Assembly (NCBI RefSeq): GCF_022406875.1
Contig: NZ_CP023018.1
Location: 35,575 to 99,574, forward strand
DNA: 64,000 bases
DNA from: Ectothiorhodosinus mongolicus
GTDB lineage: Bacteria; Pseudomonadota; Gammaproteobacteria; Ectothiorhodospirales; Ectothiorhodospiraceae
Direction: 5' to 3'
Notes under the pieces: generated by a model
Seen by the model: the letters and a program-made list of their open reading frames with translations, nothing else
Databases searched by the model: none
Told to the model about the DNA's origin: nothing
Program-made: the position numbers and the translations under genes
Shown here: piece by piece, positions 1-63,895 of the stretch
Layout of the letters: every line of letters starts with the position of its first letter
Position numbering within the stretch: position 1 is the stretch's first letter

Positions 1-1974
1 ACCACCAGCGTGGACACGGTCAGCGCACTGGCGGCGACCGGTTCGATCTTCGTGACCGAAGCCAACGGCGTGACGGTGGATTCTGTGGCAGTAACGGTGC
101 GTGACTTCAACGCTAATGCCAGCACCACGGAAGTGGCCGACGCCCTGCAATCCGATCTGACTACCGGTGACGATGGTGACATCGTGCTGGTGGCCACCCT
201 GGGCGACATCGTGCTCAATGACGGTACCGCGACGAACGCGGGGCAAGCGGTAAGTGCGGACGGCAGCGGCTCTGTCCGTCTTGAGGCTACGGCGGGCAGT
301 CTGACGGCTAATGCCGGTGCGGACATACTCAGCGGCTCTGGTGATATCACGCTGCGCGCAGGTGAGGGGATAAGTCTGGGTGCCAACGTAGATGTAGTCA
401 CAGCCAGCTTAGGTACTATTAGCATCAATGCGGTTGGGGGCGCTTTGACGATGGCTGGCAACAGCAACGTGACCGCCAGCGGCAGCAGCGCGCGTTTGGC
501 GGCAGATGGCAATCTGACGGTGGGCAATGTGCAGGCCACCAACGTCAGTCTGGTGTCTGGGAACGGTGCGATCATCAACGCTGCAGGCAGCGAGATGAAC
601 GTGACCGCCACGAACCTGCGCCTGCAGGCCGAGGGCGCGATCGGCGCCAGCGACAGTCACCTCACCACCAGCGTGGACACGGTCAGCGCACTGGCGGCGA
701 CCGGTTCGATCTTCGTGACCGAAGCCAACGGCGTGACGGTGGATTCTGTGGCAGTAACGGTGCGTGACTTCAACGCTAATGCCAGCACCACGGAAGTGGC
801 CGACGCCCTGCAATCCGATCTGACTACCGGTGACGATGGTGACATCGTGCTGGTGGCCACCCTGGGCGACATCGTGCTCAATGACGGTACCGCGACGAAC
901 GCGGGGCAAGCGGTAAGTGCGGACGGCAGCGGCTCTGTCCGTCTTGAGGCTACGGCGGGCAGTCTGACGGCTAATGCCGGTGCGGACATACTCAGCGGCT
1001 CTGGTGATATCACGCTGCGCGCAGGTGAGGGGATAAGTCTGGGTGCCAACGTAGATGTAGTCACAGCCAGCTTAGGTACTATTAGCATCAATGCGGTTGG
1101 GGGCGCTTTGACGATGGCTGGCAACAGCAACGTGACCGCCAGCGGCAGCAGCGCGCGTTTGGCGGCAGATGGCGATCTCACGGTGGGTAATGTCACGGCT
1201 TCTAACGTCAGCTTGGTTTCTGGCGGAGCCATTATTAATGCCGCTGACAGCATCAAGAACGTCACCGCCACGAACCTTCGGCTGCAGGCACAAGATTCCA
1301 TCGGTGTTGCAGGCCGTCATCTGACCACCAATGCGGACACGATCAGCGCTCTGGCTTCTACCGGTTCGATCTTTGTGACCGAAACCAACGGCGTGACGGT
1401 GGATTCTGTGGCAGTAACGGTGCGTGACTTCGACGCTAATGCCAGCACCACGGAAGTGGCCGACGCCCTGCAATCCGATCTGACTACCGGTGACGATGGT
1501 GACATCGTGCTGGTGGCCACCCTGGGAGATATTACCCTGAAGGATGGGCACGACGATGACGGTATTGCTGTCAGTGCCAACGGTACCGGCAACGTGCTCA
1601 TCCGTGCCATGGACGGTTCCATCGAGTCCAACGCGGATATCCTGTCAGACACAGGTCACCTCACGCTAAGGGCCGAAAACAACATTAACCTTAATGAAGA
1701 AGTTGATGTGGTGACGGGTGCACCCGGCACGATAAGCTTCAATGCAGTTACGGGCGCTTTGACGATGGCTGGCAACAGCAGCGTGACCGCCAGCGGCAGC
1801 AGCGCGCGTTTGGCGGCAGATGGCGATCTCACGGTGGGCAATGTTACCGCTGACGATGTGAGCCTGGTATCTGGTGCGTCGATCATCAACGCTGCGGGCA
1901 GCACGATGAACGTGACCGCCACGAACCTGCGCCTGCAGGCCGAGGGCGCGATCGGCGCCAGCGACCGTCACCTC
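1..1974 (+). repeat. Three tandem ~660-bp coding repeats in the exoprotein
   Basis: Units start at 1, 664 and 1324 (periods 663 and 660 bp), and a fourth, diverged unit starts at 1975. By direct reading, bases 1-510 and 664-1173 are identical. Unit 3 is a mosaic: its beginning (to about 1525) and the GALTMAGNS segment match units 1 and 2, while its middle is different. The end of unit 1 (about 595-663) matches the end of unit 3 better than the end of unit 2. Such patchy identity indicates recent duplication or gene conversion between units. More units may lie upstream of the window. Confidence 0.9.
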
Positions 1975-3939
1975 ACCACCAGCGTGGACACGATCAGCGC
2001 ACTGGCGGCGACCAGTTCGCTCTTCATTACAGAGACCAATGGGCTGATCGTAGGAGATGTGGCGGTAACCGTCTCCGAGATGGGAGATTCGGGGCAAGTT
2101 TCAACGGTCGATGATTCAGTATTAAGTGGCCTTAAGGCTGAAACTGCCGAAAAGATGATATTCGTGACCTTGGATGGAGGGGATTTAACACAGGCGAATG
2201 GTTCGCCAATCTTAGTTGGCCGGTTGCGTTTAGATGTTGATGGCGGCATCGAGCTCAATGATGCTGATAACTCCATTGAAGAAATGGCGGCAACAACGAC
2301 AAATTCAGGCATCAGCTTTCGAAATCAAGGTGCACTTAAAATAACAACCTTAGACGGCATTTCGGGATTTGATTCGAACTCAAATGATATTCGGGTTTGG
2401 GCAGGCGGTGATTTGCGACTTGCCGAAGATATCAATGCCGGTACAGCAAATGTTTATATCGTGTCTGACGGAGGAGGTGTTGAATCTCTTCACAGCGGGC
2501 CCTCGGGTGACGGTCCTTTCGCCAAGATTCAGGCTAATCGGCTGGGAGCGAAAGCTCGAGACGCAATTTTATTACTGGGTGACAATGAGATTGATGTGTT
2601 TGCCGGCTCAGTGACTGTGTCTGGCGATGGCCTTGAATTTGTCAGCAGCGGATCGTTGACTGTTGGTGACTTAGGCACACTAACCGTGGCTGGCATCGAT
2701 ATTGGTCCCTTGGCGGGTATTACCACCAATGGTGGTGATATTGATCTGGTACTGGAGGCCGCTGGTTCTGATCCCGGCATGCTTTCCTTGATGAATGCGA
2801 TCAGTACTGGATCGCGCAGCACGGGTAATGTATTGCTCTTTGCTGATGGCGATATCTTGATGAGCGCCAATGGGGCGGGGGTGACTGCTAAGAGACTCAC
2901 TATCGATGAGGCCTCTGGTGGTGATGTGCGCCTAGCTCATCCGCAGAACCCCGTGAGCTTAAATGCCGCTCGTTTGTTTAGTGAAGGCGCCAATGATGTC
3001 GCTGAGTTTGTGGCTCTTGATGTAGGTGGTGTGGTTCAGTTTGCCAACCGCGGGGACTTGTCACTGCCTGTCGGCGTCGTTGGCAACAATATTTGGATTC
3101 GCGCTGAGGGTGACCTGACTGTGGGCGGCGGCGTAGTGGCCGGTCCAGGTAACTCACCGCAGAATGTGGTTTTGGCGGCGGGTGGGGCGTTCCGCAATAC
3201 TTTAGGGGCAAGTGCTATCTCGGCCTCTTCGGGTTGGGTGATTTACGACAACAATCCACTGAATGATCTGTCGCGATTGGGCGGGTTGATTCCTCAGTAT
3301 CGCTTCTTCTCAACCACCTATGATGATTTGCCCATTCCTCTGATGCCCATTGGTGGCAATGTTTATGTCTCGACCATGCCGCTGCAAATCCCGGAGACCT
3401 TCTTCCGCGGCCTGCATGGCTCGGATGCGGCCTTGGGTACCGGGGCTGTGGCGCGCAACTCGGCACCTGAGGGGGCGAGTACGGCATTGATGAGCCAAGG
3501 CGCCGATCGCGGCGCTATCATTCCGGGAGGCAATTACTCTATGCCTCTACAGCCTTGGACCGGGGTGTTTGGTGGTCGCCTCGGCAGTATGCCGCGTCCG
3601 ATAGGCGGTGCCTGGGTGGTGGGATCTGCTGCGGATAATACCGATGGTTTGGCGGCGCCTTTGTCGCTGCAGCTGCGGCCTAATGTGCCATTCCAGGCCT
3701 CGTTGGAGAATATTTTGGGTGGGGCCGAGCTGTGGTCCGCCAACCTCTCTGATGGTCAGGCTTTGCCTAGCTGGCTACAGATTGCCGATGTTGATGGCAT
3801 GCGAATCTTAACGGGTCGGCCGCCAGCAGATTTTAGTGGGTCATTATCTCTGGGACTGTTGGTGCGCGACGTAGGTGATGGCTTCCTAAAACTCATCAAT
3901 ATTGAGATTGATGCCAATCTGGGAATAGCTCAGAATTAA
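1..3939 (+). CDS. 3' part of a giant repetitive exoprotein/adhesin (filamentous-haemagglutinin-like)
   Basis: The reading frame is open from the first base, so the gene starts upstream of the window; about 1312 residues are visible. The first ~660 residues are three tandem units of 221, 220 and 217 residues rich in Gly, Ala, Thr, Asn and Asp, made of short beta-helix-like strands (for example GDIVLVATLGDI and GSGDITLRAGEG). A non-repetitive region of the same style follows. Near residues 1075-1110 is a segment resembling the 'W-x-I/V-Y-x-x-P ... L-x-x-x-x-x-Q-Y' end of FHA-type exoproteins. The last ~100 residues (PSWLQIADVDG, then LTGRPPADFSG) resemble a cadherin-like/dystroglycan (CADG) fold. 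Cysteine is absent from the visible part, as is common in exported repeat proteins. It heads a co-directional gene set with SecA-like, M50 and HlyD-type proteins, so it is probably their substrate. The N-terminal signal lies outside the window. Confidence 0.75.
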   Translation, partial: TTSVDTVSALAATGSIFVTEANGVTVDSVAVTVRDFNANASTTEVADALQSDLTTGDDGDIVLVATLGDIVLNDGTATNAGQAVSADGSGSVRLEATAGSLTANAGADILSGSGDITLRAGEGISLGANVDVVTASLGTISINAVGGALTMAGNSNVTASGSSARLAADGNLTVGNVQATNVSLVSGNGAIINAAGSEMNVTATNLRLQAEGAIGASDSHLTTSVDTVSALAATGSIFVTEANGVTVDSVAVTVRDFNANASTTEVADALQSDLTTGDDGDIVLVATLGDIVLNDGTATNAGQAVSADGSGSVRLEATAGSLTANAGADILSGSGDITLRAGEGISLGANVDVVTASLGTISINAVGGALTMAGNSNVTASGSSARLAADGDLTVGNVTASNVSLVSGGAIINAADSIKNVTATNLRLQAQDSIGVAGRHLTTNADTISALASTGSIFVTETNGVTVDSVAVTVRDFDANASTTEVADALQSDLTTGDDGDIVLVATLGDITLKDGHDDDGIAVSANGTGNVLIRAMDGSIESNADILSDTGHLTLRAENNINLNEEVDVVTGAPGTISFNAVTGALTMAGNSSVTASGSSARLAADGDLTVGNVTADDVSLVSGASIINAAGSTMNVTATNLRLQAEGAIGASDRHLTTSVDTISALAATSSLFITETNGLIVGDVAVTVSEMGDSGQVSTVDDSVLSGLKAETAEKMIFVTLDGGDLTQANGSPILVGRLRLDVDGGIELNDADNSIEEMAATTTNSGISFRNQGALKITTLDGISGFDSNSNDIRVWAGGDLRLAEDINAGTANVYIVSDGGGVESLHSGPSGDGPFAKIQANRLGAKARDAILLLGDNEIDVFAGSVTVSGDGLEFVSSGSLTVGDLGTLTVAGIDIGPLAGITTNGGDIDLVLEAAGSDPGMLSLMNAISTGSRSTGNVLLFADGDILMSANGAGVTAKRLTIDEASGGDVRLAHPQNPVSLNAARLFSEGANDVAEFVALDVGGVVQFANRGDLSLPVGVVGNNIWIRAEGDLTVGGGVVAGPGNSPQNVVLAAGGAFRNTLGASAISASSGWVIYDNNPLNDLSRLGGLIPQYRFFSTTYDDLPIPLMPIGGNVYVSTMPLQIPETFFRGLHGSDAALGTGAVARNSAPEGASTALMSQGADRGAIIPGGNYSMPLQPWTGVFGGRLGSMPRPIGGAWVVGSAADNTDGLAAPLSLQLRPNVPFQASLENILGGAELWSANLSDGQALPSWLQIADVDGMRILTGRPPADFSGSLSLGLLVRDVGDGFLKLINIEIDANLGIAQN

Positions 3940-24951: not shown

Positions 24952-25042
24952 TGGGACCTGGGGGCTATTCCTGAGTATTTTACTAAGGTTAACATTAGTG
25001 TGTATCTGTTTCGCAAGCCCCATTTTGGAGAGTTGTCGTTCT

Positions 25043-25504
25043 ATGTTAAGTCCCTGCATTAAAGTCTGTCAGATCGACGCCCATGCCGAGGTATGTATCG
25101 GCTGTGGCCGCACGGAAGCAGAGATTGGCGCCTGGTCGATGTACAGTGATGCAGAGCGACTGGAGATCATGGAGCGCGTCATCGAGGAGGGCTTTAGTGA
25201 CCCAGACTTCCTGGCGCAGAAGGAGGGCGCCACGCAGAGCGAATCCCCCCAAGCCAGTGCCAATGGCAGGCAAGCACCGCCGCCGCCTCAAGCTGTCTAT
25301 GTCCCGGTTGATGCTCGTGAGATTGAGGTGCGTGAGGCCTGCCGTAAATATCCCGCCAGTGTGCTGATTGATGGGATTCCCTACGGCGAATCCGTGTTGG
25401 CCATGGTGTATACCTTGCAGCGTATCGTCGAAGAAGATCTCGATGGACATACTGCTAAGTCGCTAGCACGCCAAGCCCTAACGGGGTCAAAAAATGGGGT
25501 CTGA
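25043..25504 (+). CDS. DUF1289-family protein with C-terminal extension
   Basis: 153 residues from the ATG at 25043, preceded by GGAGAG. The first ~55 residues are a DUF1289 domain with its cysteine pattern: SPCIKVCQIDAHAEVCIGCGRTEAEIGAWSMYSD, a probable small metal-binding knuckle. After a Pro/Ala-rich linker (~residues 70-88) comes a second folded part (REACRKYPASVLIDGIPYGESVLAMVYTLQRIVEEDL) that I do not recognise. The last residues (GSKNGV) and the stop codon are supplied by the dispersed palindrome at 25496. It is divergent from selO with 91 bp between starts. Confidence 0.7.
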   Translation: MLSPCIKVCQIDAHAEVCIGCGRTEAEIGAWSMYSDAERLEIMERVIEEGFSDPDFLAQKEGATQSESPQASANGRQAPPPPQAVYVPVDAREIEVREACRKYPASVLIDGIPYGESVLAMVYTLQRIVEEDLDGHTAKSLARQALTGSKNGV

Positions 25505-25541
25505 CCCCATTTGAAGTTGCTTTCTGTTGGGGTCTGACCCC
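25483..25541. repeat. REPIN-like element, two direct GGGGTCTGACCCC cores
   Basis: Cores at 25496-25508 and 25529-25541 have the same orientation, unlike the usual inverted pairs, and a partial copy (GGGGTCA) lies at 25483. The first core contains the stop codon of the DUF1289 gene. It lies just upstream of thrS. Confidence 0.8.
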
Positions 25542-25618
25542 GTTTGTGTTAGAGTTGCGAGGCTTAATTCATTTAACGCGCACGACCCTTTGTAGCGGCC
25601 GGCGCAGGAGAGCTGTTA

Positions 25619-27550
25619 ATGCCCACCATAACCCTTCCCGATGCCAGCCAGCGGCATTTTGACGCCCCTTTGTCGATCGCAGCCATCGCCGCAGACATTG
25701 GCGCAGGACTAGCGAAGGCTGCCATTGGCGGCAGAGTTGATGGTCGCTTGGTCGATACCTCTTATGTGGTCGGTGAGGATGCAGAGATCGCTATCGTCAC
25801 CGATCGTGATGAAGACGGCGTTGCCATGATTCGGCATTCCACCGCGCATTTGATGGCGCAAGCCGTCAAACAGCTGTATCCCGGGGCACAGGTCACCATC
25901 GGACCGGTGATCGACAATGGCTTTTACTACGATTTTGCCTATGAGCGGGCCTTTGATCCGGAAGATCTGGAGAAGATCGAGGCGCGCATGCGGGAATTGG
26001 CCAAAGCCGACTATCCCCTAGAGCGTTCGGTGATGCCGCGTGCTGAGGCCATTGCCTACTTCCAAAATCTGGGTGAGGACTACAAAGCCGAAATCATCGC
26101 CGATATACCCGAGGATCAGGAACTGTCTTTATACACGCAAGGTGATTTCACCGATTTATGTCGGGGGCCGCATGTCCCGAGCACCGGTCGCCTCAAAGCG
26201 TTTAAGCTGACCAAAGTTGCCGGGGCGTATTGGCGCGGTGATTCGAATAACGAGATGCTACAGCGCATCTATGGCACCGCCTGGCCTAACAAGCAGCAGC
26301 TGGAAGAGTATCTGCACCGTTTAGCGGAAGCCGAGCGCCGTGATCATCGCCGCATCGGTCAGGAACTGAATTTATTCTCCGTGCAAGAAGATGCCGGTGG
26401 CGGCCTGGTGTTTTGGCATCCCAATGGTGCGCGTATTCGCCGCGCTATTGAATCGTATTGGTTTGAGATGCACGAGAAAGCGGGTTATGAGTTTTTGGTG
26501 ACGCCGCACATCGCCAATTTGGATTTATGGAAAACCTCAGGCCATGCCGACTTTTACGCCGAGTCCATGTATGAGCCCATGCAGGATGACCATCAGTCCT
26601 TTCAGCTCAAACCTATGAATTGCCCGTTCCACGTGCTGATCTACAAGGATCGGTTGCGCTCTTATCGCGATCTACCGCTGCGTTGGGCCGAAATGGGGAC
26701 GGTCTATCGCCGCGAGATGTCCGGCGCTTTGCATGGCTTAATGCGGGTGCGTGGCTTTACCCAAGATGATGCCCATATCTTCTGTCGCGAGGACCAAATT
26801 GAGGATGAGATTCTGCGCATTCTTGATCTCACACTGGATGTGTTAAAAGCATTTGATTTCAAAGAGTTCGATATCAATCTTTCTACACGGCCTGAAAAAG
26901 CCGTGGGCTCCGATGCGATTTGGGAGCAGTCGACCGCTGCGTTGCGAGCGGCTTTGGCACGTAAGGGCCTGGACTATGAGGTCGATGAGGGCGGCGGTGC
27001 TTTTTACGGCCCCAAGATTGATATTAAGATTCGTGATGCGATTGGTCGGCAGTGGCAGTGCTCCACGGTGCAGCTGGATTTCAATCTGCCTGAGCGCTTT
27101 GATATGGAATATGTGGGTGATGACAACAGCCGGCGCCGGCCTATCATGATCCATCGCGCTTTGCTGGGCTCGGTAGAACGATTCTTCGGTGTGTTGATCG
27201 AGCATTACGCGGGTTACTTCCCGCTTTGGCTGGCGCCTACCCAAGCAATGGTGCTGACCATTACCGATCGACAGGACGATTACGCTCAAGAAATTGAAAA
27301 AAGCCTGAAAAATCGCGGTTTTCGTGTGGCAAGCGACTTGAGAAACGAGAAGATCGGCTTTAAAATCCGCGAGCATACTTTGCAGCGCGTACCGTATCTA
27401 TTGGTGGTCGGTGATCGAGAGATGGAATCCGGGGCCGTGGCGGTGCGTACGCGAGAAGGCAAGGACTTGGGTAGCATGCCGTTAGAGGCGCTGGCTGAGG
27501 TGCTTGCGAAAGAGGTCGCGTCACGCGGTCAAACTATTTTGGAGGATTGA
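25619..27550 (+). CDS. thrS: Threonyl-tRNA synthetase
   Basis: 643 residues, full length. The N-terminal TGS domain ([20 protein letters not shown]) is followed by the editing domain with [16 protein letters not shown], then the class II catalytic core with [32 protein letters not shown] (zinc ligand Cys335) and [12 protein letters not shown], and the anticodon-binding domain ([31 protein letters not shown]). It charges tRNA-Thr. A good AGGAGAG site precedes the ATG. It is the first gene of the translation cluster, and infC starts 4 bp after its stop. Confidence 0.97.
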
Positions 27551-27556
27551 AGTATC
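27541..27556 (+). promoter_or_regulatory. Strong Shine-Dalgarno site and ATC start codon of infC
   Basis: GGAGG at 27541-27545 lies inside the end of thrS, 8 bases before ATC at 27554. The infC frame directly upstream is closed by the thrS stop (27548-27550), and no ATG, GTG or TTG exists between it and the conserved N-terminal coding region, so ATC must be the start. Confidence 0.75.
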
Positions 27557-28072
27557 AGCGCTGGAAAAGAAACCCGCCTTAATGAGCAGATCCTGGTTCC
27601 CAAGGTTCGCTTAATCGGTGCCGATGGCGAAAACCTCGGTGTAGTCAGCACTCCGGACGCTTTGAAAGTGGCTGAGGAGGCGGAACTGGATTTGGTGGAA
27701 ATCGTGCCAACCGCGGAGCCGCCGGTTTGTCGGGTGATGGACTTTGGTAAGTTCCGCTTTGAGCAGAGTAAGAAATCTCAAGCGGCGCGCAAAAATCAGA
27801 AACAAGTGCAGGTTAAAGAGGTTAAGTTTCGACCGGGTACGGACATTGGCGATTACAACGTCAAACTTCGCAATCTGCAGAAATTTTTGGAAAACGGTGA
27901 CAAATGCAAGGTCACGATTCGTTTTCGCGGTCGTGAAATGGCTCACCAAGAGCTGGGAATGCAACTCTTGGATCGTATCGAGGCCGACTTAGAAGAATTG
28001 GCGGCTGTTGAACAAAGGCCCAAGTTGGAAGGGCGGCAAATGGTGATGGTGCTAGGAGCCAAGAAAAAATAA
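27554..28072 (+). CDS. infC: Translation initiation factor IF-3
   Basis: 172 residues if translated from ATC at 27554 ([29 protein letters not shown]). An ATG-started version beginning further in would lose half of the N-terminal domain. Family signatures are [56 protein letters not shown] and [19 protein letters not shown]-3 binds the 30S subunit and rejects non-standard start codons; it represses its own gene through a rare start codon (ATT in E. coli), and ATC would serve the same purpose. It is followed by rpmI and rplT. Confidence 0.93.
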
Positions 28073-28137
28073 GCAGTTTATTTCGGACGTGCGGGTAAAC
28101 GGTACACCTTCATGTCTTTCATAATAGGAGTCCAAAG

Positions 28138-28335
28138 ATGCCGAAGCTGAAGACCAATCGAGGCGCTGCTAAGCGCTTCACCAAGACCGGCTCGGGAGCG
28201 TTTAAGCGCAACCAGTCGCATCGTCGTCATATCCTGACGAAGAAGAGCACCAAGCGTAAGCGCCATTTGCGCGGCGCCAGCCACGTCCATGATTCGGACG
28301 TCGCAGCCGTACGCCAGATGCTGCCCAATAGCTAA
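28138..28335 (+). CDS. rpmI: 50S ribosomal protein L35
   Basis: 65 residues, basic, with the family start [46 protein letters not shown]. It has a clear site (ATAGGAG) and sits 65 bp after infC. The infC-rpmI-rplT order is the usual one; in E. coli L20 represses rpmI and rplT from a leader structure, and the same may hold here. Confidence 0.96.
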
Positions 28336-28358
28336 GCCATTCTCAGGAGATTACGACC

Positions 28359-28712
28359 ATGCCAAGAGTTAAAAGAGGCGTCACCGCGCACGCCCGTCAC
28401 AAGAAGGTGCTGAAAAAAGCCAAAGGCTATTACGGCGCCCGTAAAAATGTTTATCGCGTTGCCACTCAGGCCGTCACTAAGGCTGGCCAGTACGCATACC
28501 GCGACCGTCGTCAGCGCAAGCGCCAGTTCCGCGCCCTGTGGATTGCCCGTATCAATGCTGCGGCGCGTCAATTTGAGCTGTCCTACAGTCGCCTCATCGA
28601 CGGTTTGAATAAAGCCGGCGTGGAGATTGATCGCAAAGTGCTGGCTGATCTGGCGGTACATGATATCGCTGCCTTCGGCCGCATTGCGGAAAAGGCAAAA
28701 GCCGCGCTCTGA
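28359..28712 (+). CDS. rplT: 50S ribosomal protein L20
   Basis: 117 residues: [70 protein letters not shown], matching L20 throughout. It is an early assembly protein of the large subunit. It follows rpmI by 23 bp with AGGAG before the start and is followed by a terminator-like hairpin before pheS. Confidence 0.97.
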
Positions 28713-28738
28713 GGTCTGCCGACAGGTAGATTATGGTG

Positions 28739-29822
<1,084 letters not shown>

Positions 29823-29846
29823 TTTCGGCGCAAAGGAAATCATCGC

Positions 29847-32246
29847 ATGAAAATCAGTATGGCCTGGCTGAATGAGTGGGTGGATCACGGTTTAGATGCT
29901 GTCACTCTGGGGCATAAACTGACCATGGCGGGTTTGGAGCTGGATGCCATTGAACCCGTTGCCGGTGGCTTTAGCGGCATCGTTGTGGGAGAAGTTTTAT
30001 CGGTTCAAGCCCATCCCAATGCCGATAAATTGCGCATTTGTTTGGTCAATGACGGAACCGCCGAGCCTAAGGCTGTGGTTTGTGGTGCGCCCAATGTGCA
30101 TGAGGGGATGCGCGCACCTTTTGCTCCGGTGGGCTCGGTGTTGCCCAATGACTTTAAAATTAAACCCATTAAACTGCGCGGTGCGCCTTCTAATGGCATG
30201 TTGTGCTCCGCTCGTGAGTTGGGTCTGTCTGAAGATCATATCGGTCTGATGGCCCTGCCAGCCGATGCGCCGGTGGGCAAGGACTTGCGCGCCTATTTAT
30301 CGCTCGATGATCAGGTATTAGAAATCGACCTGACGCCTAATCGTGCCGATTGTTTGTCGATAGCGGGTATCGCAAGAGAAGTGGCGACTCTGACGGGTAA
30401 AGATCTGCATCCGGTATCCTGTGAGCCGGTGACTGCCGCCAGTGACGCAACTTTTCCCGTAAGCCTGGAAGCAGCGTCTGCCTGTCCCGTGTATGTGGGT
30501 CGGGTGATCAAGGGTGTCAATGGCCAAACGGCTACCCCGCTTTGGATGCAGGAGCGTCTGCGGCGCGCAGGCATTCGTAGCCTGGGGCCTTTGGTGGATG
30601 TCACCAATTATGTGATGCTGGAGCTGGGGCAACCGATGCATGCTTTTGATCTGGCGCGGCTTTCTGGTCAAATCCACGTGCGTCAGGCCAAAGCCGGGGA
30701 AAAACTCACCCTGTTGGACGAATCCGAGGCCGAACTCAGCCCTGAGGATTTGGTGATTGCCGATGATCAACAGGTGCTGGCATTGGCGGGTGTCATGGGC
30801 GGACAGATCAGCGGCGTTGATACCCAAACCCAAGACATTTTCTTGGAGTCCGCGCATTTTTCTCCCATGGCCATTGCCGGTCGCGCCCGCGTCCATGGCC
30901 TGCATACGGAATCCTCGCATCGCTTCGAGCGTGGTGTTGATCTCGAGCTGCCCATGCGCGCTCTAGAGCGTGCTACAGCTTTATTCTTAGAGATTGTTGG
31001 CGGTGTACCGGGCCCAACTCAGTGTCATCAACTCGATGACGTGCCCGGCGCCGGCAACACGATTCATTTCCGGCCAGCGCAGGTGAAGCGCCTGCTGGGC
31101 ATCGACCTCAGCGCAGAGCGCATGCAAGACATCCTGCAGCGCCTCGGCTGCCAAATAAAAATGGGGGCAGACCCCAAATTGGGGTCTGACCCCATTTGGC
31201 AGGTCGCTGTCCCCAGCTATCGCTTTGATCTGGCCATTGAGGTGGATCTTATTGAGGAGCTGGGTCGGGTAGAGGGCTATGAGCAACTGCCCTCGATCAT
31301 GCCGCAACAGTCTGTACAGATGCCACGGCCTGAAGAGCAGCGCTTGAGTCTCAGCCGACTGAGACATGCCTTAGCGGATAGGGGTTATCTCGAAGCCATT
31401 TGTTTTAGCTTTGTAGATGCCGAACTGCAGAATCAACTTGAGCCTGGCGCCAATGCCTTAGCGCTGGCCAATCCCATCTCCGCTGACTTGGGGGTGATGC
31501 GCCTGAGTCTTTGGCCGGGTCTGATTCAGGCAGCGCGACACAACCTCAACCGCCAACAAGAGCGCATCCGTTTATTTGAAACTGGCCTTAGTTTTGTGCC
31601 ACAAGGTGATGAATTAAAACAGGAGATGCGCATTGCTGGTTTGATTTACGGACCGCTTTATCCGCTGCATTGGGACTCGGCCCCGCGAGCTGCTGACTTC
31701 TTCGATATCAAGGGCGATGTGGAAACCCTATTGGCATTATCGGGCCTAGATGAGCGTGCGGAGTGGCGGGCTTCTGAGCATCCAGCTTTGCATCCGGCTC
31801 AAAGTGCGGCCATTTTTCTTAATGGGGCATGCGTCGGCCATTGCGGCAGCTTAAATCCGCTACTGGAGCGTGAGCTAGATCTGCCCTCAGGCGTGTTATT
31901 GTTTGAGTTGGACTTAGAAGCCATTCGGCTAGGAAGCTTGCCGGCTTATTCAGTGTTAAGTCGTTTTCCTGCGATCCGGCGCGACTTAGCACTATTAGTA
32001 GATGCTGAAGTGCCGGTGGCGAAAATGTTGGAATGTATACACAAAAATGAGCATACCCTTTTAAAGCAGGTGCATATTTTTGACCTTTACACTGGGAAAG
32101 GCGTACCCGATGGTCGAAAAAGTGTCGCTTTGGGCTTGATTTTACAGGACTTATCATCCACCCTTACGGACGAAGAAGTGGACGCCATGATCCATACGAT
32201 TGTGTCAAATTTGCAACAAGACTTGGGTGTGACCCTTAGGGTTTAA
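29847..32246 (+). CDS. pheT: Phenylalanyl-tRNA synthetase beta subunit, with a palindrome read in frame
   Basis: 799 residues with the expected domains: tRNA-binding/EMAP-like ([29 protein letters not shown]), B3/4 editing domain ([39 protein letters not shown]), B5 domain ([30 protein letters not shown]), catalytic-like core and the C-terminal ferredoxin-fold anticodon domain ([20 protein letters not shown]). Residues 439-450 ([12 protein letters not shown]), in a B5 hairpin loop, are encoded by a dispersed palindrome pair; E. coli PheT is about seven residues shorter at this loop. The frame is kept, so the enzyme is presumably functional. Confidence 0.96.
31163..31193. repeat. REPIN-like palindrome pair inside pheT
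   Basis: GGGGGCAGACCCC (31163-31175, one mismatch to the core) and GGGGTCTGACCCC (31181-31193) in inverted orientation with a 5-base spacer. It is translated as part of PheT without a frameshift. Confidence 0.85.
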
Positions 32247-32250
32247 TGTT

Positions 32251-32550
32251 ATGGCATTGACCAAGGCCGAAATGGCTGAACACCTCTATGAGGAGTTGGG
32301 CCTGAACAAGCGCGAAGCCAAAGAGCTCGTTGAGCTATTCTTTGAAGAAGTGCGCACCGCCCTCGAGGATGGTGAGTGGGTCAAACTCTCGGGCTTTGGC
32401 AATTTCACGCTGCGTGACAAAAACCAGCGGCCCGGCCGCAATCCCAAAACCGGCGAAGAAATCCCCATCACGGCTCGCCGTGTGGTGACCTTCCGACCTG
32501 GGCAAAAGCTCAAGGCAAGAGTGGAAACCTATGCTGGAAATGGCAAATAA
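32251..32550 (+). CDS. ihfA: Integration host factor alpha subunit
   Basis: 99 residues: [70 protein letters not shown] is shortened here to its key parts; the DNA-intercalating [10 protein letters not shown] arm identifies IHF/HU and the context (directly after pheT) identifies the alpha subunit. It bends DNA as a heterodimer with IhfB. Four bases separate it from the pheT stop, and its end overlaps the merR-like gene. Confidence 0.95.
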
Positions 32551-32887
32551 CAGTGAACTCCCGGTCATTCCGGGAAAGCGCTACTTCACCATTGGCGAGG
32601 TCAGCGAGCTGTGCGCGGTCAAGCCGCATGTCTTGCGTTACTGGGAGCAGGAATTTCCGACACTGAAGCCCGTTAAGCGACGGGGCAACCGTCGCTATTA
32701 TCAGCGCCATGACGTCTTATTAATCCGCCAAATCCGCAGTCTGCTCTATGAGCAGGGTTACACCATCGGTGGCGCCCGCCAGAAGCTTTCCGGCGATGAG
32801 GCCAAAGAAGACGTCACCCAAAGCCTGCAAATCATCCGGCAAATGCGCCTCGAGCTGGAAGAAATCCTCCACACCCTCAAGCGCTAA
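32531..32887 (+). CDS. MerR-family transcriptional regulator
   Basis: 118 residues from 32531 ([28 protein letters not shown]). The N-terminal MerR winged helix is clear ([51 protein letters not shown]), followed by a short C-terminal helix ([19 protein letters not shown]) without a cysteine-rich effector domain. The same small MerR protein follows ihfA in pseudomonads; its target is not known to me. It overlaps ihfA by 20 bp, so it is translated with it. Confidence 0.88.
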
Positions 32888-32895
32888 AACAAAGA

Positions 32896-32926
32896 CCTCG
32901 AAGCGGAAGTATGCGTCCGCTTGAGG
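32896..32926 (+). terminator. Hairpin after the merR-like gene
   Basis: CCTCGAAGCGGA pairs with TCCGCTTGAGG (one bulged base) around an 8-base loop, 9 bp after the stop codon. No T-tract follows, so it may stabilise the mRNA end or act with the tRNA region rather than be a simple terminator. Confidence 0.45.
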
Positions 32927-32952
32927 CTGGAGTGATGTTGGCTGGGAGGTTG

Positions 32953-33031
<79 letters not shown>

Positions 33032-33079
33032 AAAGCTCGGCATTATAGGCAATGAGGCTGGCTAAGGGAAGGGCGCTGC

Positions 33080-34510
33080 TCACCGCGCCAAGCGCGCCAG
33101 ATGGCTTTGATAGCGGCGCATGACCCATAGGTGGGCAATGGCTTGGGTCCAAATATAAACATACCAGGGCAACCGAGGCGCAAAATCGTGGATAGCGGCC
33201 ATGGTATAGCGGCCCTCAAGCACGCAATGAAATTCAAAGCGAGGCAATCCCGAACCTTTGCCAGCCAAGAGCCCCCCTTTGACTCGGTAAATCTGCCGCT
33301 CGGCTGTGCTGAGCTGAGTATCCAAACACAGTTTTAGCAGCGTGAGTTGTGGAAAGCGAAGACCAATCTCCACGCAATGATCGCTGTCCCATTGGGTTTT
33401 AACCAGTCCGCCGCAACAACTGCCCAACCAATCCCAGTAATTACGCGCCACCCAAGCAGAATCCATGCCCGGCGGCAAAATGATCCGTTGAATAGAGCGC
33501 ACAAGGCTCGCCTGACGCAGGCCTGATTTTAATTGCGGCTCAAACGCTTGGCGCGGCCCGGGTTTGACGCGTCGCGTTGTGCCATCCAGCGCTTCTTCCA
33601 ATGCGGCATCAAACCCCAACAGGCCCTCTGCAATTCGATCTTGCAACGCATTGGGCTGTAAATCCGCGTCAGCAGGAAGGCTGCCAATCACTTGGCCGGC
33701 CAGCGCGATGGGTGCGCCGGTTATCCAGCGAATACTCCAAGCCATAAAACGCTCGGGCAGCCATGGAACCCGCACAAACCGGCGTTTCAGGCCCAAACGC
33801 GTCGCGGTAATCCTGAGTAACTGCTCAAAACTCAGTTTATCGGGCCCCGTCAGATCATAGCTGCCGCGCCAGTGCTGAGGCTGTTGCAGCACCACACGTA
33901 AAGCGCGAATGAGATCGCGTAAAGCAATGGGATAGGTGACAGAACGCGCGCTGGGCGGCAGGTACAAATACCCTAAACGGCGCACCAGCTCGACCATCAG
34001 GCGTGTAGCGGTGCCACCCGGTCCAACCACGAGCCCGGCACGCAAAACCGTCAGCGGTGTGCCTTGAGATTGCAGCGCCAACTCCACCTCTCGATGACTC
34101 CACAATAAGGAAGAAATACGAAAGCTGCGGGGCATCAGGCTACTGAGGTAGACGATCTGGCCTAGCCCACTGGCCTTGGCCGCGCGCGCAAAATTATCAG
34201 CCAGCACCAGATCCATATCCCGCGGCTCTGCCTGGGTGAGGCGCGAAGAGGGGCGCAAGGAGTGCACCAAATAGACGGCCGTATCAAAGCCGCTTAAGGC
34301 CTGAGTGAGCGCTTCTAGATCATAGAGATCACAATGCTGCCACTGCACCTTATCGCCCAAAGGCGCCGCTGCCGCCAAAGCCGGCGAACGCGTTAGCGCG
34401 ACCACATCGAACTCATCGCCCAATGCTTGCGCTAAGGCTTGACCTATAAACCCGCTGGCGCCGACCAAGACCACGCGCCGACCCGAATACTGTGAGACCC
34501 CTTCAGACAT
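33080..34510 (-). CDS. SDR-fold NAD(P)-binding protein with DUF2867-type C-terminus
   Basis: 476 residues. The N-terminal Rossmann fold has VVLVGASGFIGQALAQAL and LVHSLRPSSRLTQAEPRDMDLVLADNFARAAKASGLGQIVYLSSL, typical of atypical SDR proteins of the YbjT/NAD(P)H-binding type that lack the usual YxxxK pair. From about residue 325 a second domain (SIQRIILPPGMDSAWVARNYWDWLG, then TAERQIYRVKGGLLAGKGSGLPRFEF, ending in a helix WYVYIWTQAIAHLWV) matches DUF2867. The substrate is unknown; it may bind a hydrophobic ligand or quinone. It is transcribed alone. Confidence 0.78.
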   Translation of the reverse strand: MSEGVSQYSGRRVVLVGASGFIGQALAQALGDEFDVVALTRSPALAAAAPLGDKVQWQHCDLYDLEALTQALSGFDTAVYLVHSLRPSSRLTQAEPRDMDLVLADNFARAAKASGLGQIVYLSSLMPRSFRISSLLWSHREVELALQSQGTPLTVLRAGLVVGPGGTATRLMVELVRRLGYLYLPPSARSVTYPIALRDLIRALRVVLQQPQHWRGSYDLTGPDKLSFEQLLRITATRLGLKRRFVRVPWLPERFMAWSIRWITGAPIALAGQVIGSLPADADLQPNALQDRIAEGLLGFDAALEEALDGTTRRVKPGPRQAFEPQLKSGLRQASLVRSIQRIILPPGMDSAWVARNYWDWLGSCCGGLVKTQWDSDHCVEIGLRFPQLTLLKLCLDTQLSTAERQIYRVKGGLLAGKGSGLPRFEFHCVLEGRYTMAAIHDFAPRLPWYVYIWTQAIAHLWVMRRYQSHLARLAR

Positions 34511-34570
34511 GCGGCACAGTGTAATCCATCATGCGAGCCTCAGTGGCGATTGCATCTAAAGCCATTTACC

Positions 34571-36954
<2,384 letters not shown>

Positions 36955-36979
36955 TCATTGTACCTGAAGAGCGTCGATC

Positions 36980-39655
<2,676 letters not shown>

Positions 39656-39729
39656 GGTGAGTCTCCTGGCGGTCTGGCCTACCCAGTGGCAGGCAAAGAC
39701 TTAGTTGTTTTTAGCTTGCGCGCTGTCAG

Positions 39730-63843: not shown

Positions 63844-63895
63844 TTAATGGGGACAGACCCCTTTTTGGCAAAAAGGGGTCTGTCCCCATTAATTA
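63841..63895. repeat. Perfect 55-nt inverted repeat after maeB (GGGGACAGACCCC type)
   Basis: Two perfect 26-base arms around a GGC loop. Cores are GGGGACAGACCCC (63849-63861) and GGGGTCTGTCCCC (63875-63887). The maeB stop codon lies in the left arm. CCCC followed by TTTTT and a strong stem suggest it can also terminate transcription. Confidence 0.92.

Follow-up and report, generated by a model that had tools for sequence, protein, structure and literature searches.

How did a pair of short palindromes come to be translated inside pheT, the gene for the phenylalanine--tRNA ligase beta subunit of E. mongolicus, to what class of repeat does the pair belong, and is its presence in an essential enzyme exceptional? 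Throughout, the window is the whole stretch of DNA that was analysed, 64,000 nt in length.

The palindrome pair in pheT

The pheT ORF is uninterrupted, scores 830 bits against TIGR00472 (pheT_bact) in a profile search and is the only pheT match in the E. mongolicus genome. The features of the locus, in window coordinates, are as follows.

29847-32246, plus strand: pheT, phenylalanine--tRNA ligase beta subunit, intact, 799 aa; TIGR00472 over its full length and five Pfam domains
31062-31280, plus strand: B5 domain (PF03484, by Pfam), PheT residues 406-478
31161-31196, plus strand: 12 element-derived codons, residues 439-450 (12-residue peptide), replacing about 5 ancestral loop codons, net +7
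31163-31175, no strand assigned: palindrome unit 1, GGGGGCAGACCCC, 13 nt, one base different from GGGGTCAGACCCC
31176-31180, no strand assigned: linker AAATT between the units, which are spaced at 18 nt here against a genome mode of 17 nt
31181-31193, no strand assigned: palindrome unit 2, GGGGTCTGACCCC, perfect family match, inverted partner of unit 1

The pair named in a preliminary description of the locus is thus present as two units that match a multicopy family, and its statement that the frame is kept in an essential enzyme is borne out by an intact ORF in which the element is translated. In a 35-nt segment of pheT, ATGGGG..CCCCAT, 32 of 35 positions agree with the reverse complement of the segment, and the site is bordered by CTGCCAA and TTGGCAG, one on each side. 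Derivation of the one-base deviation of unit 1 from a host GGGGCAG tract, present in some congeners, was set aside, a point mutation being simpler. Insertion into pre-existing palindromes was also rejected; flank complementarity averages 4.31, compared with 4.26 in shuffled pairings (116 clusters).

In all 109 relatives compared the loop is shorter than in E. mongolicus, by exactly 7 residues in 86 of them, including the nine congeners (55-59% identity over the query region). Between LGC and W the nine congeners have 8 residues, against 15 in E. mongolicus. The element peptide occurs in none of the 109, so its residues are not, as the preliminary description had considered, common to all relatives in other codons. 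The length step of +21 nt is a multiple of three, as anticipated, and the seven or so residues said to be added relative to E. coli PheT correspond to a net gain of 7 (against 3pco). Of the loop codons, the three that precede the element seem to be inherited (QIK, where the congeners have QV-S/N/T), and therefore 12 codons were gained and about 5 lost; the earlier claim of an insertion is right in the net gain of 7 but not in being clean, host codons having gone out as element codons came in. The empty site sought in the earlier alignment proposal is visible at genus level only and was found in no close strain, and the length of the B5 loop differs slightly among relatives.

Residues 439-450 fall within the B5 domain, where the preliminary description had placed them in a loop. 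The predicted structure of the PheT region has a pLDDT of 85, and the top Foldseek matches of the predicted PheT structure are PheRS beta chains. Strands at model positions 41-45 and 55-61 (residues 436-440 and 450-456) border the loop, and in the model the element peptide forms the end of a surface beta-hairpin of the B5 domain, between the two strands.

The 13-nt palindrome family and its association with RAYT

Within 2 mismatches of GGGGTCNGACCCC the window contains 22 sites against 2.5 expected, a number reached by 0 of 100 shuffles. The 1,995,095-bp genome yields as a whole 61 exact copies of GGGGTCNGACCCC and 143 of GGGGTACGACCCC, with 0 for the reversed-pattern controls. Closer reading covered the stretches around listed repeat sites plus 20 sample stretches. 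The stretches around the listed sites hold 213 units in 123 clusters, 55 single and 50 double. Unit spacing has its mode at 17 nt (28 of 90 neighbour pairs), and most of the pairs at 17 nt are inverted. The upstream flank is rich in A and the downstream one reads ATTT, for a consensus AAAAT..ATTT that contains no GTAG (or CGTC) tag. Doublets of pheT-type units also occur in intergenic DNA of E. mongolicus, and unrelated genes carry further copies, oriented either way and read in several frames.

Distribution among genomes is narrow. Across about 28.7 Mb of the nine congeners there is no copy of GGGGTACGACCCC and a single place with GGGGTCWGACCCC, the remaining pattern matches being TA-variants, and TGGGGTCAGACCCCA is found in 4 of 369 genomes of the class, E. 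mongolicus counted. A literature text search for exact GGGGTCAGACCCC gave no match, and Rfam returned only tRNA for window positions 25000-38000. Within the chromosome, 85 of 107 separate sites lie in the half away from dnaA (P 6e-10), which is located at 1.018 Mb; the GC skew in sampled stretches is weak and compatible with an origin near dnaA.

In a genome of the same family (G029, L261), 13 copies of the 13-mer GGGGTCWGACCCC surround a RAYT gene, with seven of the copies immediately adjoining one end of the gene or the other. The encoded protein of 247 aa scores 83.7 bits against NCBIfam REP_Tyr_transpos, for which the cut-off is 80. The sole RAYT-like gene of E. mongolicus, whose product is 41% identical to this RAYT, scores 67.5 bits and remains under the cut-off of 80; it was rejected as mobiliser, its flanks carrying a different repeat, GACAGATTTATTT. 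This gene lies among GACAGATTTATTT repeats at L126 (genome positions 737241-740582) and over 734-742 kb, and GACAGATTTATTT, with 54 exact copies, is a family in its own right, at times joined to 13-nt palindromes.

The family thus shows a high-copy short palindrome and inverted doublets with preferred spacing, as REPs and REPINs do; association with RAYT is found in G029 and not in E. mongolicus itself, and a GTAG or CGTC end tag is lacking. Because 13-mer arrays directly flank RAYT in the same-family genome, the pheT element is best filed, despite the absent GTAG, as REP/REPIN-like and RAYT-linked by family. The REP-type element of the preliminary description is in keeping with this, being a lineage-specific multicopy palindrome with a RAYT link in the same family. 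Copy number, lineage restriction and the RAYT linkage in the same-family genome suggest that the palindromes may be mobile.

Copies in other genes and the origin of the pheT doublet

Comparison of ORFs across clusters with congener DNA, using concatenated protein queries, identified at least 26 conserved genes of E. mongolicus with an in-frame copy. By Pfam family, the finer gene names being our reading of the family, these include aconitase (two genes), homoserine dehydrogenase, TilS, an RsmJ-type methyltransferase, an Mpl-type ligase, a PBP1-type transglycosylase, DusB, TruA, a ThiL-type AIRS protein, a protein of cobyrinate synthase type, 4-alpha-glucanotransferase, cytidylate kinase, a LapB-type TPR protein and a PabB-type chorismate-binding enzyme. 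In-frame intragenic REPs, dimers too, have been published for conserved genes including those of tRNA synthetases, with a placement in flexible linkers or loops proposed (PMC3733652), and the Rickettsia palindromic elements are an older case of in-frame palindromic repeats in conserved genes (PMC2229807). The pheT case is therefore not exceptional, and the rarity earlier ascribed to it is not supported. It does provide a clear example, resolved to the codon, of a REP-type repeat translated within an essential enzyme; with the same repeat in at least 26 conserved proteins of one genome a statistical study of peptide tolerance becomes possible. One aconitase gene (36983-39700, minus strand) has two copies, at window positions 37080-37092 and 39142-39154, one exact (GGQTP, congeners of equal length) and one a base off at RVVPPGTGI.

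With two congeners as reference, a change in protein length (+15 to -19) accompanies every one of the 11 multi-unit intragenic copies, whereas single-unit copies are of net zero length in 11 of 15 cases and differ by one residue in 3 more; control windows change in 15%. The contrast of doublets and singles gives a Fisher P of 0.0002, on a grouping made after seeing the data, with gaps placed by BLAST and one of the singles falling within a linker that varies. For several of the singles, the congener sequence at that site already codes for an identical or closely similar peptide and departs from the 13-mer by 1-5 bases, e.g. in DusB (AGYDP), TruA (VGYDP), 2-hydroxyacid dehydrogenase (GYDP), homoserine dehydrogenase (AGS(E/D)P) and a metallohydrolase (WGQ(A/T)P). 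When the codons of sampled ORFs are shuffled, the expectation for the coding DNA of the whole genome is about 1 perfect site, and chance would account for about one of the 26 genes; chance origin of the intragenic singles was rejected against these shuffles and the near-absence in congeners. Coding DNA has no surplus of sites with 2-4 mismatches, and an uptake-type gradient was rejected on this ground.

Most probably, a RAYT-type REP doublet entered pheT after the split from the congeners. A REPIN-like doublet of two inverted 13-nt units would have landed in the codons for the variable tip of the B5 beta-hairpin, some five host codons being lost, for a net gain of 7 residues with the reading frame preserved. 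It would persist because the hairpin tip tolerates a change in length, and a benefit to PheT would be unnecessary. We infer that a RAYT was the mover and that the doublet is neutral, and likewise the sequence in which gain and loss took place. This reading is favoured by pairs that are mostly inverted and most often 17 nt apart, as in REPINs (PMC3116915), by the length change in every multi-unit copy compared with control windows, and by family membership (61 + 143), near-absence from congeners, the 13-mers around the G029 RAYT, the shorter loops of all relatives and the modelled hairpin position. Against it stand the missing GTAG tag, the deleted host codons, which a clean RAYT insertion should not produce, and the GACAGATTTATTT flanks and sub-threshold score of the organism's own RAYT-like gene.

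It is unlikely that the 13-mer was instead written in place by a host process, whether because a motif for DNA binding or uptake is selected or through short templated conversion, the pheT pair being one such site and not transposed. The length-neutral singles, the near-same peptides already encoded by congeners, the single perfect coding site or so expected from codon shuffles and the concentration of sites opposite dnaA would all agree with it. However, pheT changed by 7 residues and every multi-unit copy changes length, the units resemble REPs in forming inverted pairs and arrays flanked by conserved A/T, and the surplus of 2-4-mismatch coding sites that stepwise selection might leave is absent.

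For the singles themselves, the sequence comparisons look more like writing in place than insertion. Possibly, though this is doubtful, singles convert near-matching codons (e.g. G-Y-D-P) to the exact 13-mer without insertion, while doublets act as insertions. Singlets were regarded as doublet remnants in earlier work (PMC3116915); in such a remnant the length change would be expected to remain. The difference between doublets (always) and singles (mostly not) in altering length offers a direct handle on the origin of REP singlets. Writing in place, if true, would be a second spreading route for a REP-like family, or else would point to selection of the 13-mer as a site of chromosomal binding or of uptake, with its copies concentrated opposite the origin.

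Returning to the doublet in pheT, a functional regulatory element (an mRNA hairpin or attenuator) in place of tolerated debris is very improbable. RNA of the region does fold to -40 kcal/mol (z -4.9), but any inverted pair would fold so, the hairpin is in mid-ORF, and the spread of other copies over unrelated genes, both orientations and several frames speaks against such a role. An old, ordinary expansion of the PheT loop with coincidental palindromes, for which the slight variation of B5 loop length among relatives could be cited, is scarcely credible, given that the codons differ from a multicopy repeat by no more than one base, that the peptide is found in none of the 109 relatives and that intergenic DNA contains doublets of these units too.

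Known repeat systems and accompanying repeats

The intragenic GTAG/CGTC REPs (PMC3733652) are alike in being short palindromes, single or in inverted dimers, in frame and present in tRNA synthetases. They differ in their tag, which the E. mongolicus units, with a 13-nt core of GGGGTCNGACCCC / GGGGTACGACCCC, do not have; moreover, host codons give way to copies in E. mongolicus, where most singles keep length. With REPIN/RAYT systems (PMC3116915) the family shares frequent inverted doublets and a preferred spacing, and its 13-mer flanks RAYT in a same-family genome, but a cognate RAYT was not found in the E. mongolicus genome, where singles are perfect intragenic cores and not decayed extragenic remnants. 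Rickettsia palindromic elements (PMC2229807) are likewise palindromic repeats that form part of the reading frame of conserved genes, which tolerate them. Compared by size only, they are about 105-146 bp, against arrays of 13-nt units in E. mongolicus and a doublet of about 35 nt in pheT.

DNA uptake sequences frequently form inverted pairs and bring little length change. As a short motif with many coding sites the E. mongolicus palindrome resembles those of Neisseria (DUS) and Haemophilus (USS; PMC2397512, PMC2346458). It differs from them in having about 200 copies, in being palindromic and in being concentrated opposite dnaA.

Other repeats accompany the family. TGTGGATAA, the reverse complement of TTATCCACA, a DnaA-box-like 9-mer, comes immediately after the palindrome at genome positions 1757655, 1814763, 1815282, 1816570, 1818830, 1819457, 1838090 and 1917425, and the composite has mirror order at 1858890; these composites are grouped at 1.76-1.92 Mb, distant from dnaA. 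A third module, GGGGACAGACCCC, at window positions 63849-63887 and at L133, always has A runs before and T runs after it and looks terminator-stem-like. Window positions 1-2025 hold long repeats in direct orientation, about 650-663 nt in length; across 300 nt, two of the copies are 100% identical.
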